From Mesorhizobium sp. SARCC-RB16n (GTDB lineage: Bacteria; Pseudomonadota; Alphaproteobacteria; Rhizobiales; Rhizobiaceae), in the NCBI RefSeq assembly GCF_008520305.1, contig NZ_ML703256.1:264433-328432 (forward strand): 64,000 nt of DNA. The letters run 5' to 3'. Position 1 is the first letter of the stretch; each line of letters begins with the position of its first letter. The position numbers and the translations under genes are program-made. Shown here piece by piece: positions 4,838 through 13,034 of this stretch. A model generated the notes under the pieces. It saw nothing but the letters and a program-made list of their open reading frames with translations, was not told where the DNA came from and ran no database searches.

Positions 4838-5956
4838 CTACTGCGTCAGCACGTTGCTGATTTCGACCATGTTGGAGCGTACCCGAAGCACGTAAAAGCC
4901 CATCGTCGTCAGGTGCGTCGGCAGCAGCCAGCCGTCCTCGCGGCCGTTGGCGATGATGAAGGGCTGGATGCGCAGGGCCGACACGAATTGCGCGTCCATC
5001 GTATCCCAAAGGCTCTGCAGGTGCTTTTCCTTGAGGACGTCCTCGAAGTCGGCTTGGGCGCCCTTCATCAGGCCGTAATAGCCATAGAGCTGGCCATAGG
5101 CGAACCAGTAGCGGTCGTCGGCACGGAAGTCGAACCAGCCATTGTTATGGTTTTCGGCGCGTTCCTTGAGGATGGCCGAGGTCGAACCGATGTCGCTGGC
5201 GATGCGATCGATATATTGCTTCAGATTGTCCGCGCGCGCATCGAAAGTCGCCTGGCAGGTGGCGAGGCGAGCGTTGAAAGAGCGCAGATTGCTCATCGCG
5301 CGCCGATACATGCTGGGCGTCGTCGCGGTCATGCCGTTGCGGCTGATATACCAGATGGACTCGTCGTACTGCAGCTGGCCACGAGCATCCTGGAGATTGG
5401 TATCGATCTGCGAGGTGGTGCGCACACGGCCGAGGTTGTCGGCAAGCTCGGTGGCTGTGCGCCGCACCGCCTGATTGATGCCGCGCTGGAACGAAGCCTT
5501 GTTGTCCATCCATGGCGTGTCGTCCCAGTCGATGCCGAACAGGCCGAGCTTGTAAAGGACCATCGACGAGACCCAGGCGTTCTGGTTGACGTTGAAATCG
5601 ATCAGGTCTGCAGCAATCTGGGCGATACCGGAGTTGCCGCAGGTCCTGGCCGTGTCGGTGCCGGCGCCCGCGGCGACCTGCTCGCCCGCGGAGATGTTGC
5701 GCTTTTCGAAGCTGTATGTGTCGGGATAGCTCGGGTTGAAATTGCTCCACCACTGGGTGGCGTAGAAGAAATTGGCGTAAAGGCCGATAAGCACCAGCAA
5801 AGCCAGGCCAACCACCGCCTTCAGGATCCAGCCGCGCTGCGTGTACCAGCGCCCGGCCCACATGAACGGCCACAGGATGACGCCGATCACAAGGCCGATG
5901 CCGCGGCCGATCCACTGGAAAATGCGGGTGAAGAAGTTCACGATCGGATCGAGCAT
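4838..5956 (-). CDS. DUF2333 family inner-membrane protein
   Basis: This 372-residue protein begins with an amphipathic/hydrophobic segment (about 12-34), then a clear membrane helix at about 47-66 (AVVGLALLVLIGLYANFFYA). A roughly 300-residue region follows and is predicted to lie in the periplasm. I recognise it as DUF2333, whose function is unknown. Its soluble part is mainly helical, with a conserved-looking WWSNFNPSYPDTY after the membrane anchor and repeated Trp/Tyr positions (YWFAYGQLYGYYGLMKG). It is the last gene of the leftward cluster that starts with the coiled-coil protein at 12197. A 103-bp gap with two hairpins separates it from the DUF6638 gene, so it may be transcribed partly on its own. 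Confidence 0.82.
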   Translation of the reverse strand: MLDPIVNFFTRIFQWIGRGIGLVIGVILWPFMWAGRWYTQRGWILKAVVGLALLVLIGLYANFFYATQWWSNFNPSYPDTYSFEKRNISAGEQVAAGAGTDTARTCGNSGIAQIAADLIDFNVNQNAWVSSMVLYKLGLFGIDWDDTPWMDNKASFQRGINQAVRRTATELADNLGRVRTTSQIDTNLQDARGQLQYDESIWYISRNGMTATTPSMYRRAMSNLRSFNARLATCQATFDARADNLKQYIDRIASDIGSTSAILKERAENHNNGWFDFRADDRYWFAYGQLYGYYGLMKGAQADFEDVLKEKHLQSLWDTMDAQFVSALRIQPFIIANGREDGWLLPTHLTTMGFYVLRVRSNMVEISNVLTQ

Positions 5957-5982
5957 GGCGATGTCACCCCCTCAACATGATG

Positions 5983-6062
5983 CCAAAAAGTTGCGGACTT
6001 TTTGGATAACATCATGCACCAAAACAACAAATTAGAACGGAATGACGGTTCATTTCGTTCTA
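5983..6062. repeat. Double-hairpin intergenic repeat
   Basis: Two adjacent hairpins fill the gap between the DUF2333 and DUF6638 genes. The first has the stem CCAAAAAGT (5983-5991) with ACTTTTTGG (5997-6005). The second has the stem TAGAACGGAATGA (6033-6045) with TCATTTCGTTCTA (6050-6062), which contains one wobble pair and runs over the DUF6638 stop codon. The layout resembles the multi-palindrome intergenic elements of rhizobia. It could also act as a terminator or an mRNA processing site. Confidence 0.65.
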
Positions 6063-7361
6063 GTCGGTCAGGCCATAGAGGCGTGTGCGAAACGCCACCT
6101 TGTCCTTCAGATATGTGGTTTTCAGAACGTCCACAACATGCGATCGCCAGGCGTCGCTGAAGCCGTCATAGTCCTTGTAGAAGCCGTCCTTGTTGAAGAT
6201 GTAGCGCGAGACGAAGTCCGACGGCACGAAATCCGAGATCAGCCGGTTGGTCAGCCAGGCGTCGGGATGATCCGGCCTGGCGCGTATCACCAGGAAGCGC
6301 TGCCGCGGCAAGACATCCTCGATCTTGAGGTGGCCGAGCTGGGCGATCTCGCGCTTGGCGGCGTTGAGGAAGGGGAAATTGCCGTCCTTCGTAATCAGGT
6401 CGGCATGGCTCTGGATCCAGGTCTGCAGCCAGACCTTGTCGACATCGGTCAAATTGCGGTTCGGCTCTGCGTCGCGGATCAGCGCGCGCACCACCATTTC
6501 GGCGCGGTGCTCGAGATAGCCAGAGGCCTCGATCCAGGAGGCGCGCGGCAGTTCGATGCGGCCGGTGGCGGCCAGGAATTTGAACACCTTGTCGGCGTCC
6601 TTGATCGAGAGATAGCTCACCTGCCAGGGTCGCGAGCGGCGGAAGCCGGGGGCGGCCGGATCGCTGATCACCGTCGTCATGTCGGGATCGACGAACACGT
6701 AGAGCCCGCCGAAATGGCTGGTCCAGTAGGCGTTGTGACGGAAGATCACCTGGTCCGGCACCAGCGCGTTCTCGCGGATATCGCCGCAGACCTTGGCGAG
6801 CTCGACCATGCGGGTCAGCATGGCATTGTCGCGCCAGGCGTCAGGCTCCTGCTTCAGGCGGTCGACGAGCTTGCCGAGTTCAGCGGCCTTGCCCAGCACG
6901 TCCTCCGCCGACAGCACCTTGAACTCGACCTGGCTGATCGACAGCAGGTCCTCGATGTCGTTGACCTTGGGAACGGAGTCCTCGATCTCGCCGTAGATGA
7001 CGTCCTTGATGGTCAGCGCGTCGATGGCGCGCTGGTTCCTGGTCATGAACTCGAACATAAGCTGCGAGGTGTTGGAGAAGGCGGTGTGCACCACCGGCAG
7101 GTCGATCTGCGACGGTGTCAGGATGATGAAACGGCGGTTGACCTCGTTGGGATCGAGATAGTCGTAGTCGCCACACTCCTCGGCCACTTCGGGCGAAAAA
7201 CCGGTACGGTCGATCTGGAAGGTCGTCAGTTTGGTGGGCTTCTTGCCGAAAGCGGCCAGCGCCTTGTTGTAGCGCTGGATGAGATGCGGCTCATCGATCG
7301 TCAGCAGCCGGCCATAGATGAGTTCGTTGTCGCGCAGGAGGTCGGGTTTGCGGGCGGTCAT
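6060..7361 (-). CDS. DUF6638 family protein
   Basis: This is a 433-residue soluble protein without signal peptide or membrane segment. I recognise it as the family named DUF6638, found beside AAA+ ATPases in rhizobia, with no known activity. Visible blocks include NRRFIILTPSQIDLPVVHTA near residue 93 and SVPKVNDIEDLLSISQVEF in the middle. I chose the ATG at 7361 (MTARKPDLLRDNELIYGRL). A longer frame to 7532 would translate the palindromic repeat at 7404-7462 as a Pro/Arg/Glu-rich tail and is not credible. It is the fourth gene of the leftward cluster, cut off from the AAA+ ATPase gene by the DUF559 repeat unit. Confidence 0.8.
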   Translation of the reverse strand: MTARKPDLLRDNELIYGRLLTIDEPHLIQRYNKALAAFGKKPTKLTTFQIDRTGFSPEVAEECGDYDYLDPNEVNRRFIILTPSQIDLPVVHTAFSNTSQLMFEFMTRNQRAIDALTIKDVIYGEIEDSVPKVNDIEDLLSISQVEFKVLSAEDVLGKAAELGKLVDRLKQEPDAWRDNAMLTRMVELAKVCGDIRENALVPDQVIFRHNAYWTSHFGGLYVFVDPDMTTVISDPAAPGFRRSRPWQVSYLSIKDADKVFKFLAATGRIELPRASWIEASGYLEHRAEMVVRALIRDAEPNRNLTDVDKVWLQTWIQSHADLITKDGNFPFLNAAKREIAQLGHLKIEDVLPRQRFLVIRARPDHPDAWLTNRLISDFVPSDFVSRYIFNKDGFYKDYDGFSDAWRSHVVDVLKTTYLKDKVAFRTRLYGLTD

Positions 7362-7403
7362 GTCGAAGAGTCCGAAGGGTTTTGCCTGACAAGGCGAAGC
7401 GCT

Positions 7404-7462
7404 AACGCTGACGCCCCCCTCTCCCCGTTCTTCACGGGGAGAGGGTAAGGGTGAGGGGCGGC
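7404..7462. repeat. 59-bp palindromic repeat, left copy
   Basis: The core stem is CCCTCTCCCCGT (7417-7428) with ACGGGGAGAGGG (7434-7445), followed by a GTGAGGGGC tail. The whole 59 bp matches the reverse complement of 7890-7948 with about two differences, so the two copies face each other across the DUF559 gene. Confidence 0.9.
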
Positions 7463-7470
7463 GCTGACGG

Positions 7471-7887
7471 TCAAGAATACGTCTCCCCATAGCCTTCGGC
7501 GGCGAGAAATCGAAGATCATTCGTTTCGACATGGCGATCGAGACGCCGCTCGATAGCCGCCAATATTGTTTCGAGCACCGCGTCCCGTTCCTTTAATACG
7601 TCGACGTTCCAAAAGCGGAGCACAGACCAACCACTTGAAATCATGAATTGATCACGGACCTGATCATATTTGTTGCCTGCGTGTTGACTCCCGTCCACTT
7701 CGACAACCAGGCGGCATTCCCTGCAGGCAAAATCAGCAAAGTAGCTGCCTATCGGAACCTGTCGAACGAATTTGTGGCCATTTAGTCTGCGGTCGCGCAA
7801 TTCCATCCAAAGTGCGCCTTCGGCATCATTATCCGATTGCCGCAGACGTCTTGCCCTTTTGGTCGTCGTGATTTCCGGTCCACGCAT
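7471..7887 (-). CDS. DUF559 (Vsr-like) endonuclease-domain protein
   Basis: This 138-residue protein has the DUF559 fold of the PD-(D/E)XK nuclease group related to very-short-patch repair endonuclease. The core reads GALWMELRDRRLNGHKFVRQ, then IGSYFADFACRECRLVVEVD and GSQH, with the likely catalytic Asp and Glu in ADF and VEVDGSQH. The C-terminal part continues with GWSVLRFWNVDVL. Its cellular role is unknown. I chose the ATG at 7887 (MRGPEITTTKRAR). A longer frame to 8001 would translate the right-hand palindromic repeat into a Pro/Ser/Gly/Glu-rich segment, a common misannotation in this family. The gene lies exactly between two inverted repeats. Confidence 0.85.
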   Translation of the reverse strand: MRGPEITTTKRARRLRQSDNDAEGALWMELRDRRLNGHKFVRQVPIGSYFADFACRECRLVVEVDGSQHAGNKYDQVRDQFMISSGWSVLRFWNVDVLKERDAVLETILAAIERRLDRHVETNDLRFLAAEGYGETYS

Positions 7888-7889
7888 GC

Positions 7890-7948
7890 GCTGCCCCTCA
7901 CCCTTACCCTCTCCCCGTGAAGGACGGGGAGAGGGGGGCGTCAGCGTT
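7890..7948. repeat. 59-bp palindromic repeat, right copy (inverted)
   Basis: The core stem is CCCTCTCCCCGT (7907-7918) with ACGGGGAGAGGG (7924-7935). It is the inverted partner of 7404-7462 and begins 2 bp upstream of the DUF559 start codon, so it probably also forms the 5' leader of that transcript. Confidence 0.9.
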
Positions 7949-7988
7949 GGAGCCACACTTTTCAACACCCGCGGGCAACGAAGGAAAT

Positions 7989-9899
7989 TCACGCATTCCA
8001 CAGGCCCTTCTTCTTCATCTCCTCCATCTCGCGCGTTGCCCTCTCGCGCAGCCTGGCGTCACGGAGCAGCTTCTCCACCGCCGCATCATCTGATTTGTCG
8101 GAATAGCGGAACTCGGAATCGGCGTAGCGATTGATCTCCTGCATGACCATGTCCATCGAAAACGGGCCGCGCAATTCCTCGATCATCGCTTTCTTGTCGT
8201 CGTAGCTCTTGTGCATGAAGGCTTCCGGCTTTTCGAACCAATCGTCGGGAAGCTCGATGTCCATGGCGCGCATCTTGATGGCGTCGGTGACGTTCTTGAT
8301 GGCGCGGCCGGTGAAGCGCGGTTCGGCGTCCTTGATCAAGTGCAGGTAGGTGCCGATGTCGGCCATGGTCTTGGGCGCGCCATTCTCCTTCATGTAGCGC
8401 TCATAGACCCGCATCAGCCCGTCCTCTTGCGGCTTTTCATGCTCCTCATAGGCTTCGGTCACGGCGCGCTGGATTTCCTGCGCGGCGTAGAGTTCGTGCT
8501 TGCCCAGAGGGATCTCGTGGTTCTTGCCGGCAAGCAGCACGAAAATGTCGATATAGTCGTCTCGCGTCTGCGGCCCGTCGACCAGCCAGCGGGCGCCGGC
8601 GCGCTGGCGCAGCGCGTCGTCGACATTCTCGGGATAGTTGGAAAACATGCCGAACGAGCAATTGCCGCGCACCACGGTGGCGGCACCGGCAAAGGCATCC
8701 ATCAGGACGCCGGTGATCTCCTGCTGGCCGGCCGAGGCGCGGTCGTCGGAGCGCCGCGCCGCCACCTGGTCGATGTCGTCGATGGTGCCGAAGCCGATGA
8801 CGCGCGGATTCAAGACATTGTTGATGAACTGGCGGCAGTTCTGGCCCGACTTGCCCTGGTAGGAAGAAATCTGGTCGACGCCGAAATTCTCATAGGCGAA
8901 GGGATAGCCGGCGACCTGGCAATAGCCGTTGACGAGGCCGGCGATCATCTGGATCAGCGTCGTCTTGCCGGTACCGGGCGCACCGTCGCCGATGAAGGTG
9001 AACAGGAAGCCGCCAAGTTCGACGAACGGGTTCAGCTCGCGCTCGAAGTCGTAGGCCATCAGCATCTTGGCGAGCTTGACCGACTGGTATTTGGCGATGT
9101 GGTTGCCAACGACCTCTTCCGGCGTCTTGAAGGTCATCACCAGCGGCTTCGAGCGCTTGCCCGGCGCGACATCGAAGCCGTCGAGGGTGAAGTCGTCGGC
9201 ATCGATGCGGATATGGGCGTTCTCGAACGGGCCGATGCCGTCGAAGCGATCCTTGCGCGCGAGCAGGCCGTCGATGGCGACGCGGGCAAAGGCGCGGGCG
9301 CGGGTCATTAGGTCGGCGTCATCCGAAGCACCGGCAATTGCCTTGTCCAGGCCGGCAAGGATCGACTTCACCGCGTCCTGCGGCGTGTCGAACAGGAAAT
9401 CGGGCTCGGGTGTATCGTTGGGCGCCTCGCCATCGCTGTCGATCAGCTGGAAGAGATAGGACGACAGGCTGAAGGCGGAAATGTAAGCGGAGGCTGACAG
9501 AAGCTTCTTGAAGGTGGCGGCATCGTCGCCTTCGAGCGGGGCGCGGGCGTTGCGCGCCTGCAGGCTTTCGAGGTCGGAGCCTTCGGCAAAGACATCCGAT
9601 ACGGCCAGCGCAATCGCCGTGCCGCGCCGGGCGCGGAACAGAAGCATGTGCTGCGGGATGGTGAGCAACTGGTCGTCGGGATGGACGGCGCCGACGGTCT
9701 TCGTCAACTCGACCTCGCGGGTGCGGCGCACTGAGCCGACCGAGACGGTGGAGACGAAGCGGCGGTTGGTGCCGGCCAAGGTCGTGCCGGATTCCCGCGA
9801 CGGATCCTCCAGCACGACGATGCGGGTGATAAAACTCTGCGCGGTGGCGCGGTGCTTCTCGATCGCCGCTTCCGGGATGGTGGTCAGGCCGGTGTCCAT
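7989..9899 (-). CDS. AAA+ ATPase with long N-terminal domain, cluster component
   Basis: This is a 636-residue ATPase. Residues 1 to about 260 form an unrecognised domain. The AAA+ module follows: Walker A GDGAPGTGKTT (304-314), Walker B region VIGFGTIDDIDQV (367-379), sensor-1 Asn in GMFSNYPE (about 421), and Arg-finger candidates in LRQRAGARW (430-438). The C-terminal 190 residues are helical and charged. There is no signal peptide or membrane helix, so it should act in the cytosol as a ring-forming remodelling ATPase. ACGGAG lies about nine bases before the ATG at 9899. Its gene is 24 bp downstream of the 380-residue protein gene, which supports joint transcription. Its substrate is unknown. 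Confidence 0.85.
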   Translation of the reverse strand: MDTGLTTIPEAAIEKHRATAQSFITRIVVLEDPSRESGTTLAGTNRRFVSTVSVGSVRRTREVELTKTVGAVHPDDQLLTIPQHMLLFRARRGTAIALAVSDVFAEGSDLESLQARNARAPLEGDDAATFKKLLSASAYISAFSLSSYLFQLIDSDGEAPNDTPEPDFLFDTPQDAVKSILAGLDKAIAGASDDADLMTRARAFARVAIDGLLARKDRFDGIGPFENAHIRIDADDFTLDGFDVAPGKRSKPLVMTFKTPEEVVGNHIAKYQSVKLAKMLMAYDFERELNPFVELGGFLFTFIGDGAPGTGKTTLIQMIAGLVNGYCQVAGYPFAYENFGVDQISSYQGKSGQNCRQFINNVLNPRVIGFGTIDDIDQVAARRSDDRASAGQQEITGVLMDAFAGAATVVRGNCSFGMFSNYPENVDDALRQRAGARWLVDGPQTRDDYIDIFVLLAGKNHEIPLGKHELYAAQEIQRAVTEAYEEHEKPQEDGLMRVYERYMKENGAPKTMADIGTYLHLIKDAEPRFTGRAIKNVTDAIKMRAMDIELPDDWFEKPEAFMHKSYDDKKAMIEELRGPFSMDMVMQEINRYADSEFRYSDKSDDAAVEKLLRDARLRERATREMEEMKKKGLWNA

Positions 9900-9923
9900 G
9901 AAGGATGCTCCGTGGTGTGACGG

Positions 9924-11066
9924 TCAGACGTCCGAGATGACCTGTCCGTTGGACAGGACGTGAACCTTGTAGCCGGCGAATATCTTTTGCGCCTCGCCGG
10001 CGGCGTAGAGGGCCTGGTAGGCTTCGTGCGGAATGAGCGCGTGATTCTCGTAGCTCGACACGCCCTGTCGCGCGGCTTCCAGGTCGTCGGTATTGATGAA
10101 GAATTCCTCCGACGACGGTTCGCTCGACCACAGGCCCTTGCGACCGGGTTTTTCGCCCTTCGAATAGACCTCCTGGATGGTCCAGGTCAAAAGCCAGGCG
10201 TTTTCGGGCTTGCGCACCTTGGCCAGCACCTCGGCGACAACGGAATTGTTTTCTGTGATGCCTGCCGAATAGAAGGGACCGAGCACCACGCGGCGCAGCT
10301 GCTTGGGGTGAAGGTCGGGGAAATCCTTGTCGACGTTGACGGCGATCGTCGCCGGCGAGAGCGTGTAGGCCGAGTTCTTCTCGGTGAAATCGTCGAAACG
10401 GTGGGCGAGCTCGGGATTGAGCAGGCCGTTGACGGGCAGGGGAATGTCGACCTTGTCGTTCAGTCTGCCATTGTCGACAAGCTGCCGGATCATGCTTTCC
10501 GAGGAATCCTCCACCGTCACCATGTAGACCAGGGGCAGGTTGGCGCTGCCGTCGAAGGTTGCCCAGTGAACGAGGTAGTAGGGCCGCGCCGTGTTCGGAT
10601 TGACCGACACCTTGGCGGTCTGCGCCAGTGTGAACGGACCGAAGGTCTGCTCGCTCTTGACGTCCTCGAGATAGAGCCGCTCGGCCATCGATTTCTGCAG
10701 CGCCTCGGGAAACTCCTTGTGGCGCAGGATGAAGTCGGCCATCTCCTCGCGCAGTTCGCCGGCCTGGGGAATGTTGGCGAGCCGGCTGTCGGCCTGGCGG
10801 CGGTCGTTTTCCAGTTCGAGCAGGTTCTGGAACACCGGGTAGCCGCTTTCGGCGCGCGAAATGCGGAACGTGTCCATGAAGCCCAGCCGGTTGCGCCAGC
10901 AGGAAAAGGACTTGTCGAGCCGGGCGATGTATTCGGCAACGATCTTGGCGACGATGCCGTGCCGGTAAAGCGGCGAGCGGTCGTCGCGCATGAACACTTC
11001 GAGGCCGCTGAGCGCGGCCGTGATTGCCGAGAAATACCGCGCCGCCGCGTCGTTTTCGGGGGTCAT
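9924..11066 (-). CDS. Conserved hypothetical protein, cluster component
   Basis: This 380-residue soluble protein is of a family I cannot name. The N-terminal third is helical (IVAKIVAEYIARLDKSFSCW, then LLELENDRRQADSRLANIP). The rest looks mixed alpha/beta, with YYLVHWATFDGSANLPLVYM and AWLLTWTIQEVYSKG as marked blocks and a C-terminal FAGYKVHVLSNGQV. There is no signal peptide. I used the ATG at 11066 (MTPENDAAARYF), which has AGGG about nine bases upstream. It lies between the coiled-coil gene (42 bp upstream) and the AAA+ ATPase gene (24 bp downstream), so it probably works with both, perhaps as an adaptor. Confidence 0.72.
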   Translation of the reverse strand: MTPENDAAARYFSAITAALSGLEVFMRDDRSPLYRHGIVAKIVAEYIARLDKSFSCWRNRLGFMDTFRISRAESGYPVFQNLLELENDRRQADSRLANIPQAGELREEMADFILRHKEFPEALQKSMAERLYLEDVKSEQTFGPFTLAQTAKVSVNPNTARPYYLVHWATFDGSANLPLVYMVTVEDSSESMIRQLVDNGRLNDKVDIPLPVNGLLNPELAHRFDDFTEKNSAYTLSPATIAVNVDKDFPDLHPKQLRRVVLGPFYSAGITENNSVVAEVLAKVRKPENAWLLTWTIQEVYSKGEKPGRKGLWSSEPSSEEFFINTDDLEAARQGVSSYENHALIPHEAYQALYAAGEAQKIFAGYKVHVLSNGQVISDV

Positions 11067-11108
11067 GCTGTCAGCCCTGGGATTGCCGCACCGGTCCGTG
11101 CGGCCCAA

Positions 11109-12197
11109 TTATGACTGCACGTAGTTGGCTGAATTGTGCTTCTTCAGCACCTCGTCGAAACGGCGGGCGAAGGCGTCGTCGGCCAGCTTCTTGCGGCGCT
11201 GGATGTCGGCGCTGGCCACCATGTTCTTCTCGTGCATCTCCAAGAGGTCGCCGATGTGCTTCTGCGAGGCGGCGCCGATGCCGGCCATGGTTTCCTCGGC
11301 CGTGTTGTCGACTTGGCTGCCCAGCGTGTTGATCTTGTGGGCGACGTCCTGCTGCGCGGCGGTCTTCAAGGAATCTTCCAAAGCCTTGTAGAGCACGATG
11401 CGCTGTTCGGTATCGATGGTCAGCTTGTTGATCAGCGTCGACTGGGCGGCGATCTGGTTGTTGAGTGAATCGACGAAGGTCTGGAACATCGAGGTGTAGC
11501 GTTCCAGCGTCTGGCTCTCGGCCAGCAATTCCTGTTCCTTGGCCTGCTTTTCATTGTATTCCGTGGCGAGCTTGGAGCGCTCGCCTTCGAGCTGCGTGCG
11601 GTCCTTCTGGCTGGTCGAGGCGGCGATCTTGTTCTCGATGTCGAGCAGCATCGGATTGAGCTCCTCGATGCGCTTCTGCACGGTTTCGAGGTTGGTCATG
11701 GTGGTCTTGCGGCGTTCGATAACCTGCGACAGGCTGGCCTCGGAGGTCTTGTAGCGCTGGTCGAGAACTTCCTTCTGCGCCTTCAATATGCCGACGATGG
11801 TGTCGGACTTGGCCAGCAGTTCCTGCAAATTGCCGGCGAGCGACATGTTGCGCACGCGGTCGGTGCGCATGCGCTGCTTGCGCTGCGCCGAAAAAACGCC
11901 GACGAAGTTTTCCCAGCCTGTGTAGTTTTTCATGCTCTCGAACTCGGCGCCGAAGACATTGGTGGCGTCCTCGAGGCCGATGATCAGGTCGGCGATGTTG
12001 CCTTCCATCACCTTCTGCTGCTTCAGCACATCCTCGATGCGGGCGTTCTCGATGTCGAAATTGGCGTCGCCGATCTTCTTGTCGGCGGTGGCGAGTGTGT
12101 CGAGCACCGTGCCGGATTGCTCGATCCTGGTGCGCATGTCCTGCACGACCTGCTTGGTCTTGGCAATTTCGGCATCGAAATTCTGCAATGTCGCCAT
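11109..12197 (-). CDS. Coiled-coil protein heading the AAA+ cluster
   Basis: This 362-residue, almost wholly helical protein is rich in Gln, Glu, Lys and Thr, with long heptad-like stretches (TTMTNLETVQKRIEELNPML and EGERSKLATEYNEKQAKEQE). It has no membrane helix or signal peptide. The start at 12197 is fixed by GGGAGG five bases upstream; an ATG at 12218 has no site. The layout of helices, with a segment around INKLTIDTEQRIVLYKALED, loosely recalls the TelA toxic-anion-resistance family, but I cannot confirm this without a profile search. It is the first gene of the leftward cluster and is followed closely by the 380-residue protein. Confidence 0.75.
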   Translation of the reverse strand: MATLQNFDAEIAKTKQVVQDMRTRIEQSGTVLDTLATADKKIGDANFDIENARIEDVLKQQKVMEGNIADLIIGLEDATNVFGAEFESMKNYTGWENFVGVFSAQRKQRMRTDRVRNMSLAGNLQELLAKSDTIVGILKAQKEVLDQRYKTSEASLSQVIERRKTTMTNLETVQKRIEELNPMLLDIENKIAASTSQKDRTQLEGERSKLATEYNEKQAKEQELLAESQTLERYTSMFQTFVDSLNNQIAAQSTLINKLTIDTEQRIVLYKALEDSLKTAAQQDVAHKINTLGSQVDNTAEETMAGIGAASQKHIGDLLEMHEKNMVASADIQRRKKLADDAFARRFDEVLKKHNSANYVQS

Positions 12198-12515
12198 AAG
12201 GGCCTCCCGCTTCGACATCAGGTCGCTGATCGCGAACAGCGGCGAATATATGTGGGGTATCAGGGGATTGAAAGACGTGAAGACAAGGACAGCGCGAAAA
12301 CAAATATCCGGCCGAAACCCTTGAAAGGCAATGCAGCCGTGGTCATGGCGTGATCAATTGGCCGGCCAAGCCTGGTTCAGCTGATTTTGAACTTTCATGC
12401 CGGCAAAGCAATCAGTCCACGCCGAAGCGGATGGCTCTGAAAGCCGACAACAACTGACCATTTGCAGCCCCGACAGGGTGCGCAAACTGGCTGTCTTTCG
12501 ACGAACGGCGTCTGC
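12198..12515. other. 318-bp intergenic region upstream of the AAA+ cluster
   Basis: No gene was found on either strand. The region should hold the promoter of the leftward cluster. I see no -35/-10 pair convincing enough to annotate. The part next to 12515 lies downstream of the cytochrome c gene and shows no clear terminator. Confidence 0.5.
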
Positions 12516-12905
12516 TCAAGGCTTGGGATCGGCCTTGAGATAGGCGATGACATTGGCGATGTCGTCGTCATTGCCAAGGCCGCCAAAGGCCATCCTGTTG
12601 CCGGGCACCTTCAGCTTGGGCGATCTGAGGTATTCGGCAAGATTTGCCTCGTCCCAGACGAGACCGGCAGCCCCCGCGCTCTTCATGGCGTCCGAATAAT
12701 AGCCGAGGAAGCTCTCGGCCGTCCCCGCCGTGCGGCCGACGACGCCCATCAGATGCGGGCCGACCTTGTCGCGGTCGGTCGCCGCCTCATGGCAGGCCGT
12801 GCAACGGTTGAAAACATGTTTGCCTAGCACAGGATCGCCCCCGGCTTGGGTGGCAACGGAAGTGGCAAGCAAAAGAAGGCTGGCGGACAAGACGGCTCGA
12901 AGCAT
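12516..12905 (-). CDS. Class I c-type cytochrome (cytochrome c2/c550-like), periplasmic
   Basis: This 129-residue protein has a signal peptide (MLRAVLSASLLLLATSVATQAG), a single haem-attachment motif CTACH and an axial Met in GNRMAFGG, as in small soluble class I cytochromes c. It should carry electrons in the periplasm, possibly between the bc1 complex and an oxidase, although petABC lies 30 kb away. The ATG at 12905 gives a normal signal peptide; an upstream extension would bury it. It is a single leftward gene 129 bp downstream of the thymidine kinase stop. Confidence 0.9.
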   Translation of the reverse strand: MLRAVLSASLLLLATSVATQAGGDPVLGKHVFNRCTACHEAATDRDKVGPHLMGVVGRTAGTAESFLGYYSDAMKSAGAAGLVWDEANLAEYLRSPKLKVPGNRMAFGGLGNDDDIANVIAYLKADPKP

Positions 12906-13034
12906 GGCTGACTCCGGAAAAGCACTGGCTGAGGGCGGAAAATAGGGCGCTGACCTTGACAAAGGCAACTTGGAATGGCGTGACGGCAAGAGGTGGCAGC
13001 GGCTCCCCGATGCCGACGTTCAGCGGCCTTCGTT

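Follow-up and report, generated by a model that had tools for sequence, protein, structure and literature searches.

A co-inherited four-gene AAA+ core with exchangeable membrane partners in a Mesorhizobium genome and its relatives

Systems built on ESCRT-III and Vps4, or on PspA and Vipp1, place a threading AAA+ ATPase beside coiled-coil and membrane proteins (PMC11237479). In the portion available to us, that comparative study of PspA partners gives AAA+ associations other than the one considered here, and names neither TelA nor the family DUF1523 in its main text (PMC11237479); DUF2333, a second family of concern below, appears in the accessible part of another paper, which notes such a gene next to an hcp-vgrG locus of Pseudomonas (PMC5256989). 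Here we describe a gene cluster of Mesorhizobium sp. SARCC-RB16n, at positions 4838-12197 of a 64,000-nt stretch of contig NZ_ML703256.1 (the window, to which all coordinates refer), in which genes encoding a coiled-coil protein (CC), a soluble protein of 380 residues (p380), an AAA+ ATPase and a DUF6638 protein define a co-inherited four-protein module. In the literature that we searched we met no description of this module and no mention of DUF6638, whereas DUF2333 is named in one paper and DUF1523 in four; a lack of mention there does not amount to absence from print.

All genes of the cluster run leftward (−). CC (11109-12197, 362 aa) yields Pfam matches only below the cut-off and belongs to no assigned family; an alternative start at 12218 gives 369 aa, and CC residues are numbered throughout on this longer form. 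There follow p380 (9924-11066, beginning with an ATG at 11066; no Pfam match, no family), the AAA+ ATPase (7989-9899, 636 aa; Pfam AAA, 5.1e-11), the DUF6638 protein (6060-7361, ∼433 aa; Pfam, 2.7e-71) and the DUF2333 protein (4838-5956, 372 aa; Pfam, 5.6e-22), the lineage-specific membrane partner. A preliminary description, made from the letters of the stretch alone, had listed five same-strand genes with gaps of 42 and 24 bp among the first three; the five genes and both gaps (CC/p380 and p380/AAA+, respectively) agree with the coordinates, but a sixth gene, encoding a DUF559 protein between AAA+ and DUF6638, had been overlooked.

That the unit is a co-inherited core, CC-p380-AAA-DUF6638, with an exchangeable fifth place, is well supported. 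We classed 138 loci by profile, most of them selected through an AAA match, so that the tally shows what accompanies the ATPase and not its frequency. The arrangement CC-p380-AAA-DUF6638-DUF2333 was found at 78 loci and CC-p380-AAA-DUF6638-X-DUF1523 at 46, where X stands for a small protein, two hydrophobic segments being present in 9/9 examples examined; two further loci carry the core and DUF1523 without X, four have only CC and DUF2333, seven are incomplete (six of these reach contig ends), and one has none. The gene for p380, counted at loci only and not genome-wide, is present at 131 of the 133 AAA-bearing loci, the remaining two (L101 and L116) being cut by contig ends. Across 299 Pseudomonadota genomes (AAA+ threshold E≤1e-10), DUF6638 occurs in 20 and the AAA+ in the identical 20, with CC in those 20 and in five more, one of them weak (3e-5).

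Functionally unrelated genes might also lie together through chance and shared descent, as an ordinary operon or a mere neighbourhood. At the 80 close loci (the best 80 of at least 569 relatives), the flanking genes of the window recur (fhs at 70/80, TK at 71/80, OpuAC at 77/80, transporter genes overall at 75-77/80), and conservation within Mesorhizobium alone therefore proves little; the gap between AAA+ and DUF6638, which exceeds 300 bp at 41/80 near and 34/50 far loci (L223 grouped near), also speaks for such an account. Against it, 53 far loci keep the core, with fhs, TK and OpuAC at 0/53, OpuB at 1/53 and OpuA at 2/53, so that shared synteny alone does not account for the conservation of the cluster; far stretches are mostly shorter than close ones and cover distant flanks less, fhs and TK being the nearest window neighbours. 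Distant alphaproteobacteria, one genome from a different class and Vibrio plasmids all have the same order among different flanks; this, with the identical distribution of AAA+ and DUF6638 across the 299 genomes, leaves mere neighbourhood a very improbable explanation. The distances of the four core proteins, compared two proteins at a time over 48 loci, give r 0.77-0.87, in every pair higher than in any of 300 label permutations; against DUF1523 distances r is 0.59-0.64. At L127, a locus of a different class within the phylum, 4/5 proteins are nearest to those of L184, which suggests transfer.

Exchange at the fifth place contradicts the earlier expectation that all five genes would be conserved together: four stay together as a set, accompanied by the membrane partner DUF2333, by X with DUF1523, or by neither nearby. 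The proposed association of a soluble ATPase with accessory and coiled-coil proteins and a membrane partner usually holds as a travelling group, but not with a fixed partner. Among the window proteins, DUF2333 is indeed the only one with membrane segments by simple hydropathy (residues 16-34 and 43-61), and these two N-terminal hydrophobic segments are presumably followed by a periplasmic domain. DUF1523 joins the core at 48/138 loci, 46 of which also encode the small two-helix protein X, and the last gene of X-type loci matches DUF1523 at 6.5e-68 in the one example tested. In the 20 AAA-positive genomes the two families are mutually exclusive, with DUF2333 in 9/9 genomes of the nearest genome's genus and 0/11 others, and DUF1523 in 0/9 and 11/11, respectively. 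One genome (G221) with a full six-gene locus (L185) has a second X-DUF1523 pair (L277). On two Vibrio plasmids of ∼0.9 Mb (L278 and L281), the four-gene core lies at ∼5100-12200, with AAA and CC 36-39% identical, an annotated mfd downstream of the core and DUF3592 membrane proteins nearby. In a single genome (L128), a PspA-family gene (7405-8118, −) lies downstream of the operon; next come a small protein with two helices and a large frame that, by eye, is acyltransferase/acyl-ACP synthetase-like.

The AAA+ protein scores 43.6 bits against PF00004, above the gathering score of 21.2, and carries the motifs generally recognised in AAA+ ATPases: Walker A (GDGAPGTGKT), a pore loop (Y347-Q-G), Walker B (DD), sensor 1 (N421), arginine fingers (R433 and R437) and a sensor-2-like GR. 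Across 74 sequences (the window protein and 73 kept after redundancy filtering), K312, T313, N421, R433 and R437, the Y-Q-G pore loop (Y347, G349) and the late Gly-Arg are each kept in 74/74. The best solved-structure sequence matches of the AAA domain are FtsH/i-AAA, proteasomal Rpt, VCP-like and katanin proteins (E 6.7e-5 to 8.4e-3), whose pore loop and Walker motifs align with those of the AAA+ in the alignments shown; in profile alignment its pore loop falls on YVG of an i-AAA protease and YLG of Rpt2. Unlike FtsH/i-AAA, the window AAA+ has no named protease domain, and its Walker B reads DD instead of DE. Judged by these motifs, the protein is built like a threading ATPase whose catalytic acid is conservatively replaced. 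Its two accessory companions gave confident AlphaFold2 models (pLDDT 90.2 for p380, helical in its N-terminal part and mixed beta/helical in its C-terminal part; pLDDT 89.6 for DUF6638, with 418 aa folded), neither of which is significantly like any solved structure, no solved chain having matched at E≤0.001.

In CC, residues 275-320 contain 23 of the 95 columns conserved at ≥95% in 63 full-system sequences; a single proline is conserved (59/59). At five Rhizobium-like loci (L177-L180 and L282), AAA+, p380 and DUF6638 are gone and CC stays beside DUF2333, and of the conserved 275-320 columns these five AAA-less CC proteins retain 12%, with gaps in 53%, compared with a retention of 27-60% in the seven other segments. 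Loss of this segment where the partners are gone hints that it may be the part of CC that contacted them, and, together with the partner swap, it yields testable contact predictions.

TelA is a long, mostly helical cytosolic protein similar in length to CC, and CC had initially been thought to recall it faintly. That likeness was not upheld: no Pfam TelA match was obtained at E≤1, and hhalign against a thin four-sequence profile of TelA (PF05816) gave a probability of 4.0%, the level of reversed controls (1.4, 3.8 and 7.1%). Of nine genomes searched, four have TelA as a separate gene, and three of those four also carry the core. Kinship of CC with PspA/Vipp1/ESCRT-III (PF04012) was likewise not supported, no Pfam match being obtained at E≤1; hhalign against a thin five-sequence PspA profile gave 8.9%, which exceeds the reversed controls (3.8 and 7.1%) slightly but falls far short of significance.

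We tentatively favour, at somewhat less than an even chance, a membrane-coupled AAA+ machine that acts by threading and remodels a scaffold of coiled-coil protein at the inner membrane. CC would assemble into a scaffold or polymer along the cytosolic side of that membrane, held there by an integral membrane partner specific to the lineage (DUF2333, or X with DUF1523); the AAA+ ring, steered by p380 and DUF6638 in the role of adaptors or regulators, would engage CC, probably near the conserved residues 275-320, and thread it through its pore, so that CC is disassembled or recycled. The co-inherited core, the exchangeable partner, the threading-type motifs and the loss of the CC segment in the absence of the ATPase are observed; from them we infer polymer formation, CC as substrate, the adaptor roles and the membrane location.

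Several findings weigh against this proposal. Walker B is DD, not DE, in 74/74 AAA+ sequences, as it is in the Vibrio copy, and with glutamate replaced by aspartate ATP turnover may be slow or differ. Hydropathy gives one or two membrane-like segments in 19/73 AAA relatives and none in the window AAA+. CC itself has no significant PspA/ESCRT-III or TelA kinship by Pfam (E≤1) or hhalign, and the five AAA-less CC proteins are related, so that segment loss perhaps represents one or two events. Correlated distances are also expected from shared species history, which contributes, and one incomplete locus (L220) has no detected DUF6638 despite ∼5 kb of downstream sequence. DUF2333 and DUF1523 serve the core as membrane partners, yet the wider families are also found without it: DUF2333 occurs in 68/299 genomes, nine of them with the AAA+, and DUF1523 in 13/20 AAA-negative genomes of one alphaproteobacterial family, in 8/13 of which X adjoins it; in none of the 13 did the stretch retrieved around it contain a core gene. 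Conversely, plasmids of Vibrio parahaemolyticus and V. vulnificus (0.88-0.94 Mb; four records, two read) and one Rhizobium leguminosarum plasmid (L280) have the core without a known membrane partner alongside, and membrane coupling may therefore not be universal.

The behaviour of the partners also bears on a different division of labour, in which the AAA+, with p380 and DUF6638, would act as an assembly chaperone or activase that matures or inserts DUF2333, DUF1523 or another membrane complex, and CC would be a tether, not a substrate. A core that is kept while its membrane partner varies is consistent with such a role, as is the tether-like persistence of CC with DUF2333 after loss of the ATPase. 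We nevertheless consider this account unlikely, since DUF2333 and DUF1523 both persist without the core, so that neither needs it, and the core in turn is found without either of them nearby.

The distribution of the core is patchy (4/240 genomes class-wide, 63/149 in one family), as might be expected of a system for stress resistance or phage defence like TelA/Ter or TRIP13/HORMA, and the AAA+ weakly matches TRIP13 and IetA in PADLOC (both 4.4e-4); no HORMA family was named in the four partners. Against such a role, none of the partners has a PADLOC hit below E 0.3; neither TelA nor PspA gave a significant match; and the close loci stay beside the fhs, TK and transporter genes counted above. 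All five genes are under purifying selection, with low median dN/dS (0.05-0.14; 43-44 loci each, from L046-L089), and neither phage records nor two pattern scans of viral contigs yielded a relative. Such a defence or resistance role thus appears improbable. The window AAA+ is up to 97% identical to the AAA of named Mesorhizobium loci.

Between AAA+ and DUF6638, the window contains an inserted cassette (7399-7953) that carries the sixth gene (DUF559, 7471-7887, −; Pfam, 1e-37) between 66-nt inverted repeats (7399-7464 and 7888-7953), which are 94% complementary with 423 nt between them. The mechanically defined DUF6638 frame, of 490 aa, extends back to 7532 and across one repeat arm; its start was set at the Met of residue 58 (position 7361) by comparison with relatives. 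A DUF559-like frame was found in the AAA-DUF6638 gap at 30/79 close loci in a search of gaps >150 bp, and at 22/79 the gap is <150 bp. The cassette looks like a small mobile, repeat-flanked insert, variable and outside the system. On pSymB of Sinorhizobium meliloti Ak57 (L279, 8926-10671), the interval between AAA+ and DUF6638 contains a DUF559-like gene together with a transposase annotated as IS4-family (ISRm16). Just upstream of CC in the window is a gene for a cytochrome c-like protein (12516-12989, −; Pfam, 3.9e-6), with thymidine kinase farther out.

Returning to the remodelling machine, it may be asked whether the locus encodes a bacterial counterpart of ESCRT-III/Vps4 of independent origin, composed of a coiled-coil scaffold, a threading AAA+ of DD type, a pair of adaptors with new folds and a membrane anchor plugged in according to lineage; we regard this more specific identification as doubtful. 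Unlike the ESCRT-III/PspA systems in the part of the comparative study available to us (PMC11237479), the cluster has a CC protein of no significant PspA kinship, together with p380 and DUF6638, for which no counterpart was seen there. Like the ESCRT-III/Vps4 and PspA/Vipp1 systems, it sets a putative threading AAA+ ATPase beside coiled-coil and membrane proteins, and the logic that we propose for it is the same.

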